Shown here one piece after another: positions 881 to 62,892 of a stretch of DNA of 64,000 nucleotides (position 1 is the first letter of the stretch; the number at the start of each line of letters is the position of its first letter). The stretch spans positions 841,543 to 905,542 of the forward strand of contig NC_136012.1 of the NCBI RefSeq assembly GCF_048128805.1, given 5' to 3'. The notes under the pieces were generated by a model. That model searched no databases. It was given only the letters and a program-made list of their open reading frames with translations, and was not told where the DNA came from. The position numbers were made by a program, and so were the translations under genes. The stretch is from Centroberyx gerrardi (Eukaryota; Chordata; Actinopteri; Beryciformes; Berycidae).

Positions 881-1340
881 GTACGGATTAATAATAATAA
901 TAATAATAATAAATAGTGGGAATATTATACCTGTGATTGCTGAGTCAGCAATCACACAATAATAAATAGTGGGAATATTATACCTGTGATTGCTGAGTCA
1001 GCAATCACACAATAATAATAAATAGTGGGAATATTATACCTGTGATTGCTGAGTCAGCAATCACACAATAATAAATAGTGGGAATATTATACCTGTGATT
1101 GCTGAGTCAGCAATCACACAATAAATAGTGGGAATATTATACCTGTGATTGCTGAGTCAGCAATCACACAATAAATAGTGGGAATATTATACCTGTGATT
1201 GCTGAGTCAGCAATCACACAATAATAATAATAATAATAATAAATAGTGGGAATATTATACCTGTGATTGCTGAGTCAGCAATCACACAATAAATAGTGGG
1301 AATATTATACCTGTGATTGCTGAGTCAGCAATCACACAAC
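881..1340. repeat. Tandem hairpin array with T-MARE/AP-1 cores
   Basis: Eight units of about 45-60 bp, separated by variable AAT triplets, each carry the perfect 25-bp palindrome seen at 932-956 (arms TGTGATTGCTGA and its complement around one G). The centre, TGCTGAGTCAGCA, equals the textbook 13-bp TRE-type Maf recognition element and contains the AP-1 core TGAGTCA. Function is inference; the sequence identity is direct. Confidence 0.85.
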
Positions 1341-1515
1341 TAGAAAGGTGCATTTTCTGGAGAAAATGCGTGTGATTGCTGAGCGTGCAAACTGTGGCAC
1401 TGGTGCAGTTTAGTGTGGGTACAGCTCACCCTTTCTGTTGGCTGTCTGTGACTGGTCTATCACTCTCCTCTTTCCCTCTTTCTTATCCTATGGCTGTATC
1501 TATGTCACATATTTC

Positions 1516-1517
<2 letters not shown>

Positions 1518-1569
<52 letters not shown>

Positions 1570-1595
1570 CGGGTGGATGTGTACATACCAGCAGC

Positions 1596-1637
<42 letters not shown>
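1518..1637. repeat. (TG)n microsatellite, two blocks
   Basis: Long GT dinucleotide runs at about 1518-1565 and 1601-1637 are separated by a short unique segment. The overlapping open frames are only translations of the dinucleotide (Cys-Val on +, His-Thr on -). Confidence 0.95.
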
Positions 1638-1640
<3 letters not shown>

Positions 1641-2186
1641 ACGCCTGTTTTTGAACATGACTGTGGATCGTCTGTTCAAACTGAAACGGCTGAAGCAAAG
1701 TTTAATATGTGTATGTAATGTTAAAACTGTGAGAAATGTGGCAGTTTAAAACACTTCTGTGAAGGAGCTGTAATGAGTGTCAAAGTGATAAGTAATGATG
1801 TTAGAAATGTACTAAAATGTAAAAATAGTGAGAAGAAAAGGGTGAGCAAATGTGTAAAAGACACATTAAAATGGAGAAGAGTGAAATAAGCACAAGAGCT
1901 GCATGTGTAAGAGAGCAGCAGAGCAGCAGAAACTACTGTGAAAAAGAGTGGAAATGTACTAAAATATACTAAAATGTAACAATACTAAGAAGTAAAAAGG
2001 TATAAAAATATGCAGTTGGTAGGAAGAGTAGGAAGGCTTATGTGAAAAGCTGGAAGGTACTAGTAGTATGAAGAGTAGGAAGGCAGTGACAAGTAATAGT
2101 TAGAAATGTACTAAAATGTAACAGTACTAAGAAGTAAAAAGGTATAAAAATGTGTAGTTGGTAGGAAGACTATGAAGGCGAACAAA

Positions 2187-2227
2187 CTATCTGTCCTGAT
2201 GCCCTGGAGGGGCATCAGGACAGATAG
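2187..2227. repeat. Perfect 18-bp-arm hairpin insertion
   Basis: Arms CTATCTGTCCTGATGCCC and its exact complement surround the 5-base loop TGGAG. The paired copy of the macro-repeat (near position 40) has only the first seven arm bases, so most of this hairpin is an insertion or templated duplication specific to this copy. Confidence 0.85.
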
Positions 2228-3078
2228 TAGGAAGGCTGATGTGAAAAGCTGGAGGGTACTAGTAGTATGAAGAGTAGGAAGGCAGTGACAAGTAATAATG
2301 GTAGAAATGTACTAAAATGTACTAATACTAACAAGTAAAAAAGGTATGAAAATATGTAAAACACATGTTGAAATGGAGAAGAGTGAAATAAGCAGAAGAG
2401 CTGCATGTGTAAGAGAGCAGCAGTGCAGCAGAAACTACTGTGAAAAAGACTGGAACACTAGTGTCAAACAAACGTTAATATCTCAAAAACTATACATCGT
2501 ATCGCTTATATATTGACATTGTGAGTGAGAGCAGAAGTAGCTGAAGGGTTTGATGTATAATATGTGTATGTAGTATTAAAGTTGTGTGAACTGTCACAGT
2601 TTTAAAATGTGTGAATTTAGTAAAAAGTACAGCCTGTAAAGTCTGCTAGAGTGAGTTCTGACATCACGCACTCTAGCGTAGCTCCATAGGCTGCCATTAT
2701 AAAGGTTTAAAAAAGTATAAAACTTAAACTGTGATTACTCAAAAAGTACAAAAGGTATCAAAAAGCTGAATAAGACTGATAAAGTACTAAAAGTGGTGAC
2801 CCGTTTAAAGTTTGAATGGAGTTTCTAGCTTAAAGTATGAAAGAGTAGTTAGAGTTCAAAGAGGGCATGGTTTGAACATTCCGCCCATAGACTTCCATTG
2901 TAAAAAAAAGTAGAAAAAAGTAGAATGGTTTAAAAAGTATAAAAGATATCAAAAAGTTGAATACACGCCCGAATGTCCAAAACAAGCTGAAAGTTTTAAA
3001 GTTTGAACGGAGTTTCTAGCTAAAAGTATGAAGAAGTAGATAGGTGCCAAAAAAGTGTACGGAAGAAAAAGAATAATA

Positions 3079-3342
3079 ATAAAGAGCGAGAATATTATAC
3101 CTGTGATTGCTGGGGCAGCAATCACACAATAAAGAGCGAGAATATTATACCTGTGATTGCTGGGGCAGCAATCACACAATAATAATAATAATAATAATAA
3201 TAAAGAGCGAGAATATTATACCTGTGATTGCTGGGGCAGCAATCACACAAATAGTGGGAATATTATACCTGTGATTGCTGAGTCAGCAATCACACAAATA
3301 GTGGGAATATTATACCTGTGATTGCTGGGGCAGCAATCACAC
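3079..3342. repeat. Second hairpin array (GGGG-loop variant)
   Basis: Five units related to the 881-1340 array. Four carry TGCTGGGGCAGCA and one (about 3280) carries TGCTGAGTCAGCA. The stems (TGTGATTGCTG and its complement) are unchanged while the loop differs, so the stem is better conserved than the AP-1 core. Confidence 0.85.
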
Positions 3343-3540
3343 AATAAGTAAGAAGACTAACAATAGTTTGCTTGCTGAAGCAAGCACACTAATAAGTAAG
3401 AAGAATAACAATAGTTTGCTTGCTGAAGCAAGCACACTAATAAGTAAGAAGAATAACAATAGTTTGCTTGCTGAAGCAAGCACACTAAAAATAATAATAA
3501 GTATGCAAGATAGTAAGAGTGTGCCCTGCCTACGGCAAGC
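3343..3540. repeat. Third hairpin array (GCTTGC stem)
   Basis: Three near-identical units of about 48 bp ('aataagtaagaagaataac' plus a hairpin) contain TTGCTTGC-TGAA-GCAAGCA stem-loops, followed by a degenerate unit near 3530. The long minus-strand open frame here is repeat translation and is not treated as a gene. Confidence 0.8.
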
Positions 3541-3610
3541 ACACTAATTATAACAGATGATATAGTGAAAATTAAGACTTGACAAGAAAGTCTTTGGCGC
3601 TTAGACTCTA

Positions 3611-7260: not shown

Positions 7261-10150
7261 TTAACAACCTTACAAATAAGTAGGCCTATATATACACAAT
7301 CTGACTATACCTCATAGAGCAAAAGTAGTCTATAAGCTGCGCGACCTTCATTCCATCTTTGTAAAGATTATGTTTCGGACATTTTTACTTTATTTAGCAG
7401 TATTGACTGAAGAGAGAATACAGAATCTGTGCCTTAGCTCTGATACTACACAAGTAATGATAGATCAACCAGGATTGCAATGTACAAACCAACACCCACT
7501 TGGGTTCAGTCATGGCATTCTTGCATTGGATTCCCATACAAACTAAATGCATACAAATCTATCTGCCTCCAGGTCGTTAACAATCACGGGGCAATCATTA
7601 ACAATCACGGGGCTGTGATTATCTTCGGCACATAGGTCGTAGATATACAGTACAACAGCACTCCCTCTCGTGTGATATTGCTTAATCAAATATCAGCCAG
7701 TCAGTGTCGTCCACCTCTGATATGATGGAAGTTCCTCCCTGATCGCAGCTACAGAAAAACAGACTGACATGAAATTGCATTTTCTTTGCACATTTAATTT
7801 TTTGTAAATTATTTCTTCCTTTAAAGGCTGTAATGTATCCCAGAGTTTCCACTACAATTAAATAGGTGTGGCGGGTCACCCTGCCTTAAAGAGCTGCTAA
7901 CACTACAAGAATTTCAGTGGAGAGTTGGTCTAAATGCTGTTTCAGAGGCTTTTCCACTCTGCCAAGAATAAAATTCTGGGGGGAAACACTGAATACTTTT
8001 TACATTCTTGCCTCTGAACTATTTCACTGTAATAGGAAAGGAAGGAGGGGTTAGTGTTGGGAGGAAAAGAGGACTGATCTGATTGCTACTGGTAGATGCT
8101 GCCTCCTTTTGATAGATACTTATCTTTACACTTTGTTCTGTGCCATTTTCTCATGAAGTGCCAAATGCTATAAGTTTGATCCAACATTAGAATAATAAGT
8201 ACACACAAGCAAGGATGGAACATATTTCACTTTGGTCTAACTATTTCAAGTTTTTAACACACATTCACTTACATATGTGTTCTGACTGAATACCGGCTGT
8301 CCCTGGGTATCTTTAGTAATGTTACTGTACATGTGCATACTAGAAAACTGCAAATTCTACTTGTACAACATCAACTAAAGTATAGTGACTGAGCACTCTG
8401 ATTTCACAGCATTTCAGTGGCCTGTAATGAGGTTTGGTACTCAAGGACACATACAATTGGGTAAAAACATAAAGTTGTACCAAGGTGAATTGCAAAATTT
8501 TGAATTCAATTCAATCATTCAATTTCTGACTACTGAGGATGATTTTGCGCTAGTTCTCAGGAAAACACTAATATCAGGTTAATATATACAGGTCTGCATA
8601 CAAACATTGTTTTATATTTGAATAAACCAGGGCACTGAGATTTGATTTCAACTGTACTCCTGAGTTACTGTGGAGTGTCGGTACTTAGTAATGTATGACA
8701 AGATGCAACTGTATTCATTCATGGAAGGTTGACTAAGCACAATGATCTTTTTCAGCAACACCCTATTACACAGTGTTATACACATTCACACGGTCCAACT
8801 ACCTACCTATCCACTGGATTAGATGGGGGTTAGTGGTTCACTGTAAGGGAACCCTGATCGACTAGGTTGAGACAGACTGTTTGTGCTTTCCTTTGCCTGG
8901 AGATTTTGTGATTCACACAAGTTGTCCATCTCTGATTGGGTGGAGGGTAGGTTTGCTGGTCAGACAGTTGTAATACATAGCGCCTGCCTTACCGGTGGAC
9001 AGAAGTGTCTTTTTGTATGAGAATAGGGGTTAATATAGAGTTCTCTGCCTTGTATATTGCAAGAAGAGACTGATATTCTGCAGGAGTGCACAAACGTAGA
9101 ACTACAGAAACCAAGGGAAGAGCATTTCAAAAGTCTCTGGAGGTGAAGTGAGAGTAGTCTGAGATATTGCCAACAGTCCAGGGCAAATACTGAGTCCATT
9201 GATTAACTCTGTGTAACTCTAGTCCACAGCGTGTCCCACAGTGAGTCAAGGGAAAAGTGGCAAAGAGTTATAGGACTGAGAAGTACTCAAAGCTCTAGGT
9301 AGTGCAGTAAACACAGCCTCGTCTATTAAGACAGACAGGTCCACAGACTCTTCCTGCCTCGTGTGTTTAGCTTTTCAAGAAACTTGTTTATCTCTAGAGT
9401 TTGAGGTAAGATTTAGTGGACAGACATAATGCGTAGCATCCGCTTTACAGTAAGCTGAGACAAGTTCACAAGTCATGAAAACCTCAGTTCTAGAAGAAGT
9501 GGGGTATCCAGGTGTGCAATGCCTCGTAACGTTTTCCCAACGCTGGTCCTGCTGCTGTTCCTATCTCTGTTTGGGGCGTCCTGAGGCTGCCTGGAGGAAC
9601 CTGCCTTGGCCTACCGGTACACCGGAGCTGTCTGCAGGCTCACCCACCCTGCTGCTGTTGTCTGTGAGTGGGATTTTGACCCTTTCTTTTCTTGCTTCCT
9701 TCCAAGGATTTGCTTTTACTTGTTTGTTCATTGGTTCAATTATCCGTCCACCCATTCATTTGATTCATTAATTCAGTCATTCACTTTTGTTCAAAGACCT
9801 TCCCTGCTGCTGTGAGATGGATTTCACTTATTTTTTCTTTATTTGGTTGCTGCTTCCTTCTTTCTTTTTTCCCTTCCCTTTTTCCTTCCTCTGTTCCTAC
9901 CACAACTGCTTAGCAGTGCTACATGTAGCATTTTTAAACATCAATATATCATTGTCAGATTTATTTTGACGCCTTGGTATAATTACCATAAACAAAAATT
10001 AGCAGCTGGTCGAGATGATTGGTAGCGTCTAGTATCTCACTCTAGTGGTATTGTTAGTGCTATTGTTTCTCAAAATTAAGACTATATTTCCCATAAACCC
10101 TGTTGCTTCCTGTCCTGATCCATCCAGGATCTTTGCTTCTTCAGTCAAAG
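7261..10150. other. Intergenic, no gene recognised
   Basis: Only short open frames without recognisable domains occur. A segment at about 7925-8005 (ctaaatgctgtttcag ... ggaaacactg) resembles 50665-50740 inside an SPDL1 intron, so it is a dispersed fish repeat of unknown class. I see nothing else supportable. Confidence 0.6.
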
Positions 10151-12692
10151 GTACGGTGGCCCTGAGGGTCAAAACACAACGACATTTCACAAAACACGAC
10201 ATTTCACAAAACACAACAATATTTCAGAAAACACAATGACATTTCACAAAACAAATGAACATTTCACAAAACAAATGAACATTTCACAAAACACAACATT
10301 TCACAAAACACAACAACATTTCACAAAACAAATGAACATTTCACAAAACACATTTCACAAAACACAACAACATTTCACAAAACAAATGAACATTTCACAA
10401 AACACAACAACATTTCACAAAACAAATGAACATTTCACAAAACACAACAACATTTCACAAAACACAACATTTCACAAAACACAACATTTTACAAAACACA
10501 CTTCACAAAACACAACATTTCACAAAACAAATTAACATTTCACAAAACACAACATTTCACAAAACACAACATTTCACAAAACAAATTAACATTTCACAAA
10601 ACATTTCACAAAACACATTTCACAAAACAAATTAACATTTCACAAAACACAACATTTCACAAAACAAATTAACATTTCACAAAACACAACAACATTTCAC
10701 AAAACAAATTAACATTTCACAAAACACAACATTTCACAAACAAATTAACATTTCACAAAACACATTTCACAAAACACATTAACATTTCACAAAACACAAC
10801 ATTTCACAAAACACAACATTTCACAAAACAAATTAACATTTCACAAAACACAACATTTCACAAAACACAACAACATTTCACAAAACAAATTAACATTTCA
10901 CAAAACACAACATTTCACAAAACACAACAACATTTCACAAAACACAACATTTCACCAAACACAACAACATTTCACAAAACACAACAACATTTCACAAAAC
11001 ACAACGGCAAAAGAGAAAACAATTCAACATTTCACAGAAAACGGAAAAGGTAGGTCCTTTCTTTGTTGTTACTGATTGGATGTATTCGTTGTCACTCGAG
11101 GTAACAGGAAGTGGGACCAGAGCAATGGCTCTGAGAGATGTGTTCTGCTGGTTCAGATGAACAGAAAATAACGGTTCCGGCATTTAGCCTTCAAAATAAA
11201 AGTGCGATATTTTAAACATGTATAAATACTGTTTTAAACCAATTACTTTGTATTTAATTGTCAAATTCAATAAGTGAACACCCATATTAATGTTTGATGT
11301 CAAAATAATAGAGAAAAATGCTATATGTGCCATTTTTAACTATAAACGCTGCATATATTACACTTTCTGACATTTTTGACTAAATTGGACACTGTACAGT
11401 TTACCTTTTAGTGTAACTGCACAAGTTCTATGTCAAAACACTGCAGACCTGAACTTTCACACACACTAATATTTAGGCCCAAATGGTTTAAGAAAAGTCA
11501 TGACAGGCCCTCAAAGTCAGCCATACTCTAACACTGTGACATTTGTAGAAAAAAGTATCTAAGACACACATTTGAAACACACACAATAGTGTCAAGTCAA
11601 GTCTTTTTCACACTGTAAAATCTTTTTTTTTTTTACAGTTTTCAATTTTACTGGTTTCAATGGCAGGTGTGACTGAAAAAAAGAAATGGGACAAATTAGA
11701 TATAAATACATAAATAATAAATAAACAGCTTGGACCTAAATGATAGTGTGTAGAGAAAGTACAGATCTACAGGAGTGTTTTGATAGAACTTGTGCAGTTA
11801 CAATGAAAGATAAACTGTACAGTGTCCAACTTAGTCAGAAAATGTCACATTATTACAGTATGGCTGACTTTGAGGGTCATGACTTTTCTTTAAGAGCTTG
11901 GGCCTAAACGTTGGTGTGTAGTGAAAGTACACATCTGCAGGAGTGTTTTGACATAGAACTTGTGCAGTTACTCTAAACTGTACAGTGTCCAGTCAGAAAT
12001 ATCAAAAAGTGTAATACATGCAGCATTTATAGTTAACAATGGCGCATAATATGGCATTTTTCATTATTATTTTGACATCAAACATTACTGTAATATGGGT
12101 GTTCACTTATTGAATTTGACGATTAAATACAAAGTAATTGGTTTAAAACAGTATTTATACATGTTTAAAATATCATGCTTTTATTTTGAAGGCTAAACGC
12201 CCAAACTGGAAGTGTTTTCTGTTCATCTGAACCAGTGGAACACATCTCTCAGAGCCATTGCTCTTGTCCCACTTCTTGTTACCTTGAAACGAATACATCC
12301 AATCAGTAATGACAAAGAAAGGACCTACCTTTTCCGTTTTCTGTGAAATGTTGAATTGTTTTCTCTTTTGCCGTTGTGTTTTGTGAAATGTTGTTGTGTT
12401 TTGTGAAATGTTATTGTAATTTGTTTTGTGAAATGTTGTTGTGTTTTGTGAAATGTTAATTTGTTTTGTGAAATGTTGTTGTGTTTTGTGAAATGTTAAT
12501 TTGTTTTGTGAAATGTTGTGTTTTGTGAAATGTGTTTTGTGAAATGTTAATTTGTTTTTTTAAATGTTGTGTTTTGTGAAATGTCCTTGTGTTTTGTGAA
12601 ATTTTGTTGTGTTTTGTGAAATGTTGTTGTGTTTTGTTAAATGTCGTGTTTTGTGAAATGTTGTTGTGTTTTGACCCTCAGGGCCACCGTAC
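10151..12692. mobile_element. 2.5-kb foldback element with tandem-repeat arms
   Basis: The ends are inverted copies: GTACGGTGGCCCTGAGGGTC at 10151 and its complement ending at 12692. Inside the left end lies about 840 bp of tandem ATTTCACAAAACACAAC-type units (10180-11005). The right side carries the complementary array, only about 315 bp (12360-12675). Further inward, unique inverted arms match (about 11005-11480 against 11950-12360), with a central loop and an extra partial copy near 11780. The arrays translate to FTKHNISQN-like repeats, which I treat as meaningless. No transposase is present. Superfamily is unknown; foldback-type DNA transposon is the best description. Confidence 0.8.
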
Positions 12693-47167: not shown

Positions 47168-47225
47168 AATGATGCTTTCAAAGCCCTTTGGAAAGACGGT
47201 AGATATGAGCTTCCCCACTAGAAAG

Positions 47226-47730
47226 TACTGTTAATCTCAGCTTTCAGATGGTAAATACTACTCGAAAATACTGTTCACTTCAGCTTTCAGATGGTAAATA
47301 CTACTCGAAAATACTGTTTACCTCAGCTTTCAGATGGTAAATACTACTCGAAAATACTGTTCACTTCAGCTTTCAGATGGTAAATACTACTCGAAAATAC
47401 TGTTTTCAGCTTTCAGATGGTAAATACTACTCGAAAATACTGTTTTCAGCTTTCAGATGGTAAATACTACTCGAAAATACTGTTCATTTCAGCTTTCAGA
47501 TGGTAAATACTACTCGAAAATACTGTTCATTTCAGCTTTCAGATGGTAAATACTACTCGAAAATACTGTTTACCTCAGCTTTCAGATGGTAAATACTACT
47601 CGAAAATACTGTTCACTTCAGCTTTCAGATGGTAAATGCTACTCGAAAATACTGTTCACTTCAGCTTTCAGATGGTAAATACTACTAGAAAATACAGTTC
47701 ACCTCAGCTTTCAGGTGGTAAATCCTATTT
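47226..47730 (+). repeat. 43-bp minisatellite, ~12 copies
   Basis: Unit TACTGTTCACTTCAGCTTTC followed by AGATGGTAAATACTACTCGAAAA. Two units lack about 5 bp (TACTGTTTTCAGC). It begins 43 bp downstream of the LINE's 3' target duplication. Confidence 0.95.
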
Positions 47731-48269
47731 GGGAACTCTGGGTTTGGTTATGGACTGATTTCTCTGACAATTATGACATCAACAAGGAAATCAAGTTGAA
47801 AAAAAGCAGCACACCAATATTATAATATAATATTCTTTTCCATTATAATATCGCTGTGCTGCTTTCTTTCAACTTGAACTCTGATCATTGATGTCCAGCA
47901 CCCAGCTACAAAGTAGCCTTTTGGAAGAAGCGCGCCTGTTTCTATTCTGTATTTGATCAACAAGGAAATATCTGCAGTCAAGTGCAGGTAATATATTCTT
48001 TTAAACAAAAAAAACAACGAAATTATCCAATTTCATCACATAAATCATTTTGTAGTCACAACTTTTAACATGCCATGGCGAGACACTACATTTTCTGCAA
48101 GAGTTGCACATTATTCACAGTGGCTCAATGAATCACAGCAAAACATGTAAGATGAAACTGTATGGCGGCAACAAAAACACTTTACAGAATGAGGTAAATC
48201 GAAGAATATTCATGTGTTTTGGAAAAAAATTACAGAATACCATATTTTTCAATCATTTAATACGTATTC
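47731..48269. other. Intergenic between SIL1 and SPDL1
   Basis: Short AT-rich interval. Inverted 'caagttgaaa(aa)aagcagcac' and 'gtgctgctttctttcaacttg' near 47790-47875 suggest a small MITE remnant. No gene. Confidence 0.45.
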
Positions 48270-60711: not shown

Positions 60712-62892
60712 ATGGAGCTGGCCCAAAGGGACAGGCTGTCCGAGCTGGTGGAGGAGCTGACCACATCAGGACAGCCACAGCTCAACCAGGACAAGATGAA
60801 AGAAGTCAAGAGGATCTGCAAGTAGGTTTAATACTGAGATAGCTACTTCTTTTCACTGTTTCCCCCAGTGTTCTTTCATGAGGCCACACACATGACACAG
60901 AGCTATATGAAAACACTTACATTTGGGGTTCGATTGATTTGGGTTTTGGTAGGCCAATACTGATGTTATGGAATTGAAACTGCCAGTAGCCAATAGCCAA
61001 TAGTCAATATCTTTAAATTTGAACAGTTCCACGCCCAAAATTCCAGTGTTTCTCCAGAATTTTATTGCTGCCAGGATGAAAAAAAGCCTCCGAAACAGCA
61101 TTTAGATTTGTGTTAACACTATGACACTTTATGTCACTTTATGCCACATTATGTCACTTTGCACTACAGTATTATGTTCTTGTGTTTTTTTTTTGTATTT
61201 CTTTCATCCTAACTTATTTTTTAATTGATTCTTATTTTTATTTTAATTCTCTATTTATCTCTGTGAATATATACTTAACTAAAATATAAGCGCAACATGC
61301 AACAATTTTACTTTGAAGATTTTACGTGGTTACAGTTCATATAAGAAAATCATTCTTGTCCAAGGAGAAATGCTCACTAACATGGATGTAAACAAATTTG
61401 TGCACAGGATTTGAAAAAATAAGCTTTTTTTGTGGGAAAAAATATGATATTTTATTTTAGCTTTTAAATGTTGCATTTATATTTTTGTTCAGTATATGTT
61501 ACTATTCTTTTATTGTTACTATTCTTTTTATACTGAGAGGACCCAGCACACAAGCATTTCATTGCACTGTTTACCCTGTGTATGCTGTGTGAGGATCAAG
61601 AATAAGGATGATAATAACAAGAAAAATGTATTCATGCATATTCATCAAAATGTCTAATAGAATCAATTCAGGTATTCCCGCAGATACCCAGTGTAGTATT
61701 GACCAATTCACTGCATCATATTAATCATATATGACTGGATCAGATCCCATTTTTAAAAAAGGACAGTATTGACACCATATATTGGTCTAACCCTAGTTTA
61801 AGTCTTCAGCTAGCCCGATTACTCACCTAGCATAAAAAGCAAACATGTGGCTAATCTCTGTCCATTCTTTGTCCGCCATACTTCTCAGAGTATCTACTGA
61901 CTGCGTAGACCATGTGTACCACTCGGTGATGTCCCAGCTCAACCAGGAGCATGCTGAGATCAGACTGTCAGCCTTCCAGATAGCCAGCGAGCTCTTCTCC
62001 AGGTCGCACCAATTCAGAACCCTACTGGTGGACAACTTCCAGGTACTGGAGAGCTGTAGGCCTGCAGCTTTTCATTCCAACCAAACACTACAGCAGCCGA
62101 TCCCACTGATGAGCACAACTTCAGTCAGAGAAAGGGAACGAATCACTGACTATGTTTCCATGCCAGAGTCACCTGGTTACTAGTCATACTCTGGTTAAGG
62201 TCTTATTCAGGTTGTTTTGTTTCCATGAACCTTTGAGTCTCCCTGTTGCCATGAATAAACCAACTAACAGAATGTTCCTCCTCCTCTTTTGAGTGAGCAA
62301 TAGTACTTCTAATACAGGGGAAGCAAATGATGATGCCACTAGTGATAGTAATAAGTAATGCTGGTGCCGCTGTGTTTTTTGTTGTCATAAAAATGTACCC
62401 ATAATGCTGTGCGAGTCTGAGTTTGACACATGCTGAAAACCAAAAGTGTGAGTGCAATGCCACAGTAACCATTTTAATATCAGAGTAAGTCATGGAGATA
62501 CATTTCTGTCCAAACAAAGTGTTTGTGAACTGAACATTTTGAAACGTCTCCTTTGTAAAATCTGTATTTGCAAACCTAAATTCTGCTTTTACAAGAAATG
62601 TGTCTTCATGTATCTCCTCTTCTGCTCTTTCTCCTGCTCTCCCTCCTCCTCTTACTCCTCCTCCTTCTCCTCTTCCTTCTTCGTCCTCTTCCTCCTCCTG
62701 CTCTCCCTCCTGCAGGAGTTCTTGGAGCTGACGGTAGAGACGGACTCGGAGCAGCCCCTCCCTCCTCCTAAAGAGGTAGCCAAGAAGCTGAAGTCGTCGG
62801 CCATCCAGACAGTCCAATCGTGGCAGGCCTCCTATGGGTCAGCCTATAAGAAGCTGGCGCTGGGCTACCACTTTCTCAAGCAGGTCAAGAAG
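60712..62892 (+). CDS. UVSSA: UVSSA (UV-stimulated scaffold protein A), 5' part
   Basis: Coding exons: 60712-60821, 61889-62042 and 62716-62892 (147 aa; further exons lie beyond the window). UVSSA binds stalled RNA polymerase II and, with CSA/CSB and TFIIH, acts in transcription-coupled nucleotide excision repair in the nucleus. Visible is the N-terminal VHS/ENTH-like helical domain: [73 protein letters not shown] and [16 protein letters not shown]. These are family hallmarks; the domain binds CSA. The first coding exon follows an acceptor at 60691-60693, so the 5' UTR begins in an upstream exon near the SPDL1 promoter. A minimal start-stop ORF (ATGTGA) lies 12 bp before the start. All phases close. 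Confidence 0.94.
61130..61620 (+). repeat. LINE-type 3' region in UVSSA intron
   Basis: The right part 'actgagaggacccagcacac ... catttcattgcactg ... gtgtatgctgtgtga' and the left part (about 61135-61265) look like one fish LINE tail. It is interrupted by the element 61270-61496. Confidence 0.5.
61270..61496. mobile_element. Tc1/mariner-like MITE nested in the LINE tail
   Basis: Inverted ends TATACTTAACTAAAATATAA and, complemented, TATACTGAACAAAAATATAA, followed by GCAACAT motifs, are the hallmark ends of a very common fish TA-target element. 227 bp, non-coding. Confidence 0.8.

Follow-up and report, generated by a model that had tools for sequence, protein, structure and literature searches.

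A tandem array of T-MARE palindromes in Centroberyx gerrardi, very probably the multiplied 5' end of a non-autonomous Helitron-like transposon

We analysed a stretch of 64,000 nucleotides of the Centroberyx gerrardi genome (contig NC_136012.1, positions 841,543 to 905,542, hereafter the window) in which a 13-bp Maf/AP-1 recognition site is repeated in tandem. We propose with high confidence that the palindrome carrying this site forms the 5' end of a rolling-circle transposon of the Helitron superfamily, which is non-autonomous and lies on the minus strand. The limits of the element, its layout, its mode of insertion (at one insertion) and the arrays of both whole elements and 5' units could be read directly from the sequence. 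The T-MARE core corresponds to the loop and inner stem of the palindrome and most likely serves no regulatory purpose, and the look of an eight-site binding platform is most likely a by-product of the transposon end.

The 13-mer TGCTGAGTCAGCA was found on the plus strand at all nine places given by the sequence-only reading (938, 991, 1047, 1100, 1150, 1200, 1268, 1318 and 3276), and it agrees with the Maf recognition element (MARE) published as TGCTGA(C/G)TCAGCA (PMC4073273), as that reading had held. With at most one mismatch, it gave 18 matches on both strands of the window, against a mean of 0.08 in 100 shuffles. All nine sites are embedded in the 25-bp TGTGATTGCTGAGTCAGCAATCACA, which had been described as a perfect palindrome; its two 12-bp arms do pair, but a single central G breaks the perfection. 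Likewise, the nine sites all exist but do not count as nine independent ones, the eight at 908-1337 being copies of one unit that is identical over 50 bp in 8/8 cases. Units of the 938-1330 array vary only in the number of intervening AAT triplets, with spacings of 53, 56, 53, 50, 50, 68 and 50 bp (i.e. steps of 3 resulting from the AAT number). The array opens with an (AAT)n microsatellite (890-912, plus strand), further AAT tracts lying between the units, and consists of the 5'-terminal unit repeated eight times on the minus strand (908-1339), each identical 50-bp unit comprising the palindrome, about 25 nt and AAT repeats. The outermost 25-bp palindrome (1312-1336, minus strand), i.e. the 5' subTIR and its complement, holds a T-MARE.

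This array belongs to a partial copy of the element (copy A, minus strand, 1-1339), a purine-rich repeat devoid of any reading frame of 120 aa or more, whose 5' terminus, when the element is read as a Helitron, falls at 1339 and whose 3' end lies left of the window, where the nearest CTAG end was found at L009:8505. Copy B follows (minus strand, 1340-3547), with its 3' end CTAG at 1340-1343 and a 5' end that we infer at 3547, with T at 3548; its 3' limit was set by comparison with the dispersed copies L021, L025 and L026. On the minus strand, this 3' end is made of the terminal 10 nt (ACCTTTCTAG-3', 1340-1349), which form an identical end after unique flank in the same three dispersed copies, of a terminal hairpin (1350-1369, GCATTTTCT-GG-AGAAAATGC in plus-strand reading) and of a 3' subTIR (1370-1383), an inverted copy of 13-14 bp of the 5' palindrome arm. 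Towards its 5' end, also on the minus strand, copy B carries five A-type palindromes (3102-3341) with loops GGG, GGG, GGG, AGT and GGG, the AGT one being at 3270-3294, then outside them three D-type palindromes (TTTGCTTGCTGAAGCAAGCACA, 3367-3488, the last at 3463-3484) and, outermost, an E-type palindrome (GTGTGCCCTGCCTACGGCAAGCACAC followed by TAA, 3519-3547). When the A, D and E stems were set in register, one bulged E base being omitted, two of the ten pairs differed on both sides and were still paired, and broken pairs were limited to one in D and one in E. Compared over 880 positions, the bodies of the two copies are identical at 842 and differ at 38 (span 2144-3345 in copy B). A perfect hairpin with 19-bp arms (2186-2228) is present in copy B and missing from copy A, which corresponds either to a foldback insertion in B or to a deletion in A.

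The loci read for the limits of the element comprised 20 fetched stretches, two more and several small ones. Dispersed copies stop sharply on the plus strand at the palindrome followed by CACAA, beyond which the sequence is unrelated. Eight dispersed 5' ends were counted (L019, L021, L022, L025, L026, L028, L029 and L030); L020 was dropped from this count as a paralog of L019, L023 as a composite and L027 as a variant, the 5' end of the latter reading TTTCTGTG. The host base outside the 5' end is A in six of the eight (G in L022 and T in L028). The other end was located in L021, L025 and L026, where CTAGAAAGGTGCATTTTCTGGAGAAAATG and then the arm GTGTGATTGCTGAG come after unique flank; the host base beyond CTAG is T in all three, and the elements measure 1660, 2135 and 2177 bp, respectively. 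The plus-strand base preceding CTAG is A in 55/55 matched ends, 50 of which are tandem junctions where this base belongs to the neighbouring element. Read on the minus strand, the layout is thus a host A, TT, GTGTGATTGCTGA (subTIR), C, TCAGCAATCACA, an internal part including (ATT)n, TCAGCAATCACAC (3' subTIR), the 20-nt hairpin and 10 nt ending in CTAG, followed by a host T. Reading the hairpin as a 3' terminus on the plus strand was ruled out, as dispersed copies carry CTAG at the opposite end, and a non-LTR retrotransposon tail with AAT repeats was ruled out by the CTAG and A/T limits. Within L027, a stretch of 4.7 kb between matching ends (L027:5196-9926) holds what we take by eye to be a PIF/Harbinger-like transposase frame, either captured or nested.

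The mode of insertion was examined at L025, which lies within a repeat. A search with its joined flanks led to 40 places scored out of 516 first-look candidates; two of these 40 are the flanks of L025 itself, and six of the other 38 were fetched. All six paralogous empty sites run through the junction without any target duplication at this one insertion tested, the junction reading A/T in five of them (i.e. an A followed by a T) and A/C in one.

Whole elements are themselves arrayed. In the 10 kb left of the window (L009), the element is repeated in one orientation, as it is in the sampled stretches of C4, C2 and C5, and the left edge of the window is the close of such a head-to-tail array. 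In 11 cluster stretches, the 50 CTAG ends matched all share one strand and follow each other at intervals of 1452-2470 bp. They are preceded directly by the palindrome in 16 cases, by the palindrome via AAT triplets in four, by the end ATTATCTGCAATA in 24 and by an AAT tract in six, so that the palindrome is absent before 30 of the 50. Genome-wide, the 3' end of the element gave at least 798 matches with up to two mismatches (601 + 197).

The 5' unit is multiplied to variable extents. Among 20 palindrome arrays joined to CTAG, eight have a single unit, five have two, five have three, one has five and one has eight, the eight-unit array of the window being the longest within this set only. The longest T-MARE-family array among the matches listed has ten units, nine exact and one with a changed stem, and no CTAG joint (C2:5,713,748-5,714,261). 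The duplicates L019 and L020, with an identity of 98.0-98.6% on either side, contain one and four units, respectively, which argues that units multiply in place. A sister family, E, has a different stem and a pattern that lacks the T-MARE; it gave at least 550 genome matches (249 + 301) and forms arrays with runs of at least 13 matches among the matches listed, at steps of 50, 53, 56 or 59 bp that widen to 100-130 bp at units missing the pattern. In L023, the 3' subTIR of this family (CGGCAAGCACAC) matches its own 5' palindrome (GTGTGCTTGCCG), just as the 3' subTIR of family A matches the 5' palindrome of A. From one family to the other, both ends thus change in concert, and the bZIP core does not persist. 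A mixed joint was also observed in L023, where an E-type palindrome is followed by an A-type CTAG end.

The genome searched amounts to 778,876,752 bp, over which repeat counts are lower bounds. The exact 25-mer palindrome occurs at least 371 times (261 + 110), against none for the reversed control, a perfect stem with any loop at least 419 times, and the palindrome with up to three mismatches at least 435 times on the forward strand and 433 on the reverse; since the palindrome is nearly self-complementary, forward and reverse matches are largely the same sites. The stem is altered in about 16 of the 435, and the loop differs from AGT or ACT in 48 of the 419 perfect stems; among listed or fetched sites, these other loops are GGG and, once, AGG. 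Consistently, 82 units read in fetched loci show 20 of 21 palindrome differences in the 3-nt loop and one in the 22 stem bases, a sample biased in that exact palindromes or stems guided the choice of its loci, and a contrast that is not a count of independent events, the GGG copies being related by descent. The genome counts of 371, 419 and 435 are free of this bias in the choice of loci. The centre base of the palindrome is inverted in L022, L027 and L028 (ACT for AGT in the plus element orientation), the T-MARE being kept. The caution that structure rather than the core might be what is kept was borne out by these stem and loop counts, as well as by the sister family without the core. The earlier proposal had named random core changes on conserved stems as the observation that would speak against it; the outcome is intermediate, since stems are indeed perfect in 419 of 435 sites, but the loop is AGT or ACT, i.e. 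the T-MARE core, in 371 of the 419. The loop is hence not random, and we take this predominance to reflect a probable recent spread of one subfamily. The search for the 25-mer across the genome, also suggested there, recovered at least 371 copies, dispersed and in head-to-tail arrays.

The view first put forward was that the array evolved as a binding platform or decoy, i.e. that it was selected to bind the predicted Maf, Nrf2/Bach-small Maf or AP-1 and that the palindrome is kept for this reason. It would account for the exact MARE consensus, for the core kept in 371 of 419 perfect stems and for the distribution of perfect T-MAREs over the genome, where 371 of the 498 recovered (against two for a reversed control pattern), i.e. 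about three quarters, sit in the palindrome. We nevertheless regard it as very unlikely and found it unsupported: the palindrome is the 5' terminus of the element, whose opposite end bears a corresponding half copy that has no T-MARE, the array results from local multiplication with a unit spacing of 50-68 that tracks the AAT number, and copies or families lacking the core behave alike. Thus, the two GGG-loop copies fetched, L029 and L030, are dispersed and show the end seen in T-MARE copies, and family E, which lacks the core, is arrayed in runs of at least 13 matches, against ten units for the longest T-MARE-family array among the matches listed. Since GGG copies end alike and the sister family arrays similarly, terminal identity and the palindrome, rather than the bZIP core, are what goes with mobility. 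Incidental but real binding, in which bZIP factors occupy unselected sites and the transposon has spread or concentrated putative Maf/AP-1 sites, is a possibility on the unlikely side. The exact consensus and the 498 sites against two speak for it, as does the report that zebrafish MafK binds MARE-containing promoters by ChIP (PMC4073273), while many copies stand in long tandem arrays where chromatin is likely closed. It is quite improbable that the element's T-MAREs (371 of the 498 found) bind Maf/CNC/AP-1 in vivo in such a way as to titrate stress factors, or to open or mobilise the element when these factors are active. Lastly, the eight units differing only in their AAT number, and whole elements arrayed at the satellite-like period of 1452-2470 bp, could evoke a common minisatellite or satellite whose palindrome arose by chance, in place of a transposon end; this reading is contradicted by the single units with which dispersed copies stop at unrelated flanks, empty sites having been recovered for one such copy, and we find it scarcely credible.

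Within rolling-circle transposons, the ends point to an unusual position. In agreement with canonical Helitrons, the 3' end follows CTRR, with CTAG at the limits of L021, L025 and L026 and at 50 cluster junctions, a 3' palindrome (16-20 nt, about 11 nt from the end in canonical elements) is present as a 20-nt hairpin ending 10 nt from the terminus, and the one insertion tested took place between A and T with no duplication of the target (A/T in five of its six empty sites). The canonical 5' TC is replaced by TT in 8/8 counted dispersed ends. A Helentron/HINE end rather than a Helitron end is a genuine but less favoured possibility. SubTIRs are found at both ends, as in Helentrons and HINEs (A having GTGTGATTGCTGA twice and E GTGTGCTTGCCG twice), and the 5' subTIR with its adjacent complement, the microsatellite and the 3' palindrome are as described for HINEs (PMC4067079, PMC7492417). 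Moreover, two parts of the C2 cluster flank a Helentron-type gene (2481 aa, with PF14214, PIF1 and Exo_endo_phos). Against this, the TT target and the T string at the limits were not found (A/T in five of six empty sites of one insertion, and a CTAG end), the combination of 5' TT, 3' CTAG and A/T insertion is given for proto-Helentron while Helentrons prefer TT sites (PMC4067079), and the C2 gene is devoid of such ends in the surrounding 17 kb. The ends we observed (5' TT, 3' CTAG, A/T target, no duplication) are those of proto-Helentron. Its hairpin, CTAG end and A/T insertion make the element operate like a Helitron; as TC and the HINE TT target are absent and these ends are shared with proto-Helentron, we call it Helitron-like and, judging by its ends, it would stand nearest to a Helitron-Helentron intermediate.

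Proto-Helentron has itself been proposed as such an intermediate (PMC4067079). The described element, proto-Helentron-Pi of Phytophthora infestans, shares 5' TT, 3' CTAG, insertion between A and T and the lack of target duplication; the present one differs in that it is found in an animal, is non-autonomous and has its palindromic 5' subTIR in tandem, tandem 5' ends being absent from the description of proto-Helentron-Pi (PMC4067079). Hel-2 Helitrons of Lepidoptera have in common the 5' subterminal inverted repeat, the downstream microsatellite, the 3' stem-loop, CTAG and the A/T flanks, but they start with TC, their microsatellite is CTGT and no multiplied 5' palindrome appears in their description (PMC4344730). 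HINE, Cg_HINE and DINE-1 elements share the 5' subTIR with its adjacent complement, the microsatellite, the 3' subTIR, the 3' palindrome and internal tandem repeats, and differ by their TT target preference and by arrays described as central repeats rather than as a terminal unit (PMC4067079, PMC7492417). In plant tandem Helitron arrays, as reviewed in PMC12628747, one 3' end is likewise accompanied by several 5' ends; those arrays consist of truncated copies, whereas here it is a 50-bp terminal unit that has been multiplied, in addition to the arrays of whole elements. Finally, a 3' CTAG that directly abuts the 5' end is also described for Helraiser circles (PMC5876387).

The autonomous partner would be expected to be flanked by TTGTGTGATTGCTG...CTAG or TTAGTGTGCTTGCCG...CTAG. 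PF14214 (Rep/helicase) gave 129 matches in the genome, and no partner with the element's ends was found among the three of these that were fetched, within the stretches fetched. One of them, an open Rep-helicase-endonuclease frame of 2481 aa and of Helentron type, with PIF1 helicase and endonuclease domains (L031:1946-9388), is located between two C2 cluster parts. This gene at C2:5.69 Mb was rejected as a partner, as were two further Rep genes (C17:27.02 Mb and C2:3.41 Mb), matching ends being absent from each stretch fetched. PF14214 frames of 2394-2481 aa also occur at C4, C6, C21 and C78. Two further sets of PF14214 genes, with frames of 1152 and 333 aa, respectively, both recur many times among the matches listed, and many of their members lie within a few Mb of the contig start or, for contigs of known length, of its end. 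Pattern scans of IMG/VR and a scan of GTDB genome contigs gave no match, and a literature search for stretches of the element sequence found none.

Other features were observed elsewhere in the window. Within 10150-12690, a CAAAACACAACATTTCA-type repeat forms two arrays in inverted orientation (10170-11005 and 12373-12673); by eye, they sit between matching GTACGGTGGCCCTGAGGGTCAAAACACAAC-like ends and resemble a foldback element with tandem-repeat arms. An Rfam mir-16 family match above the gathering score was obtained on both strands at 47795-47873, adjoined by a 43-bp minisatellite (47217-47727). Among seven frames scanned, the sole host gene recognised was a UVSSA_N (Pfam) match at 62695-62889.

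As a mechanism, we propose that a Rep/helicase would nick at the palindromic 5' end and halt on reaching the 3' hairpin and CTAG. Together with its 3' partner, the palindrome may constitute the recognition sequence of this enzyme, which would explain why both ends are alike within a family and different between families. The 5' units could multiply either by re-initiation at 5' ends or by slippage of synthesis on AAT tracts at the hairpins, and whole elements might be joined CTAG to TT, as in Helitron circles.

An apparent array of transcription factor sites is very probably a transposon end, which calls for caution in motif scans of repeat-rich genomes. The element combines, in an animal, traits that the cited papers assign to separate groups, i.e. 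the ends and target of the intermediate with the subTIRs and microsatellite of HINEs. With two families whose palindromes differ and are matched at their ends, and with near-identical loci of one and four units, both the recognition and the multiplication of the ends become testable. The share of T-MAREs located in the element is an unexpected remainder: since one transposon carries roughly three in four of the perfect sites found, this genome offers a natural setting in which to test their importance.
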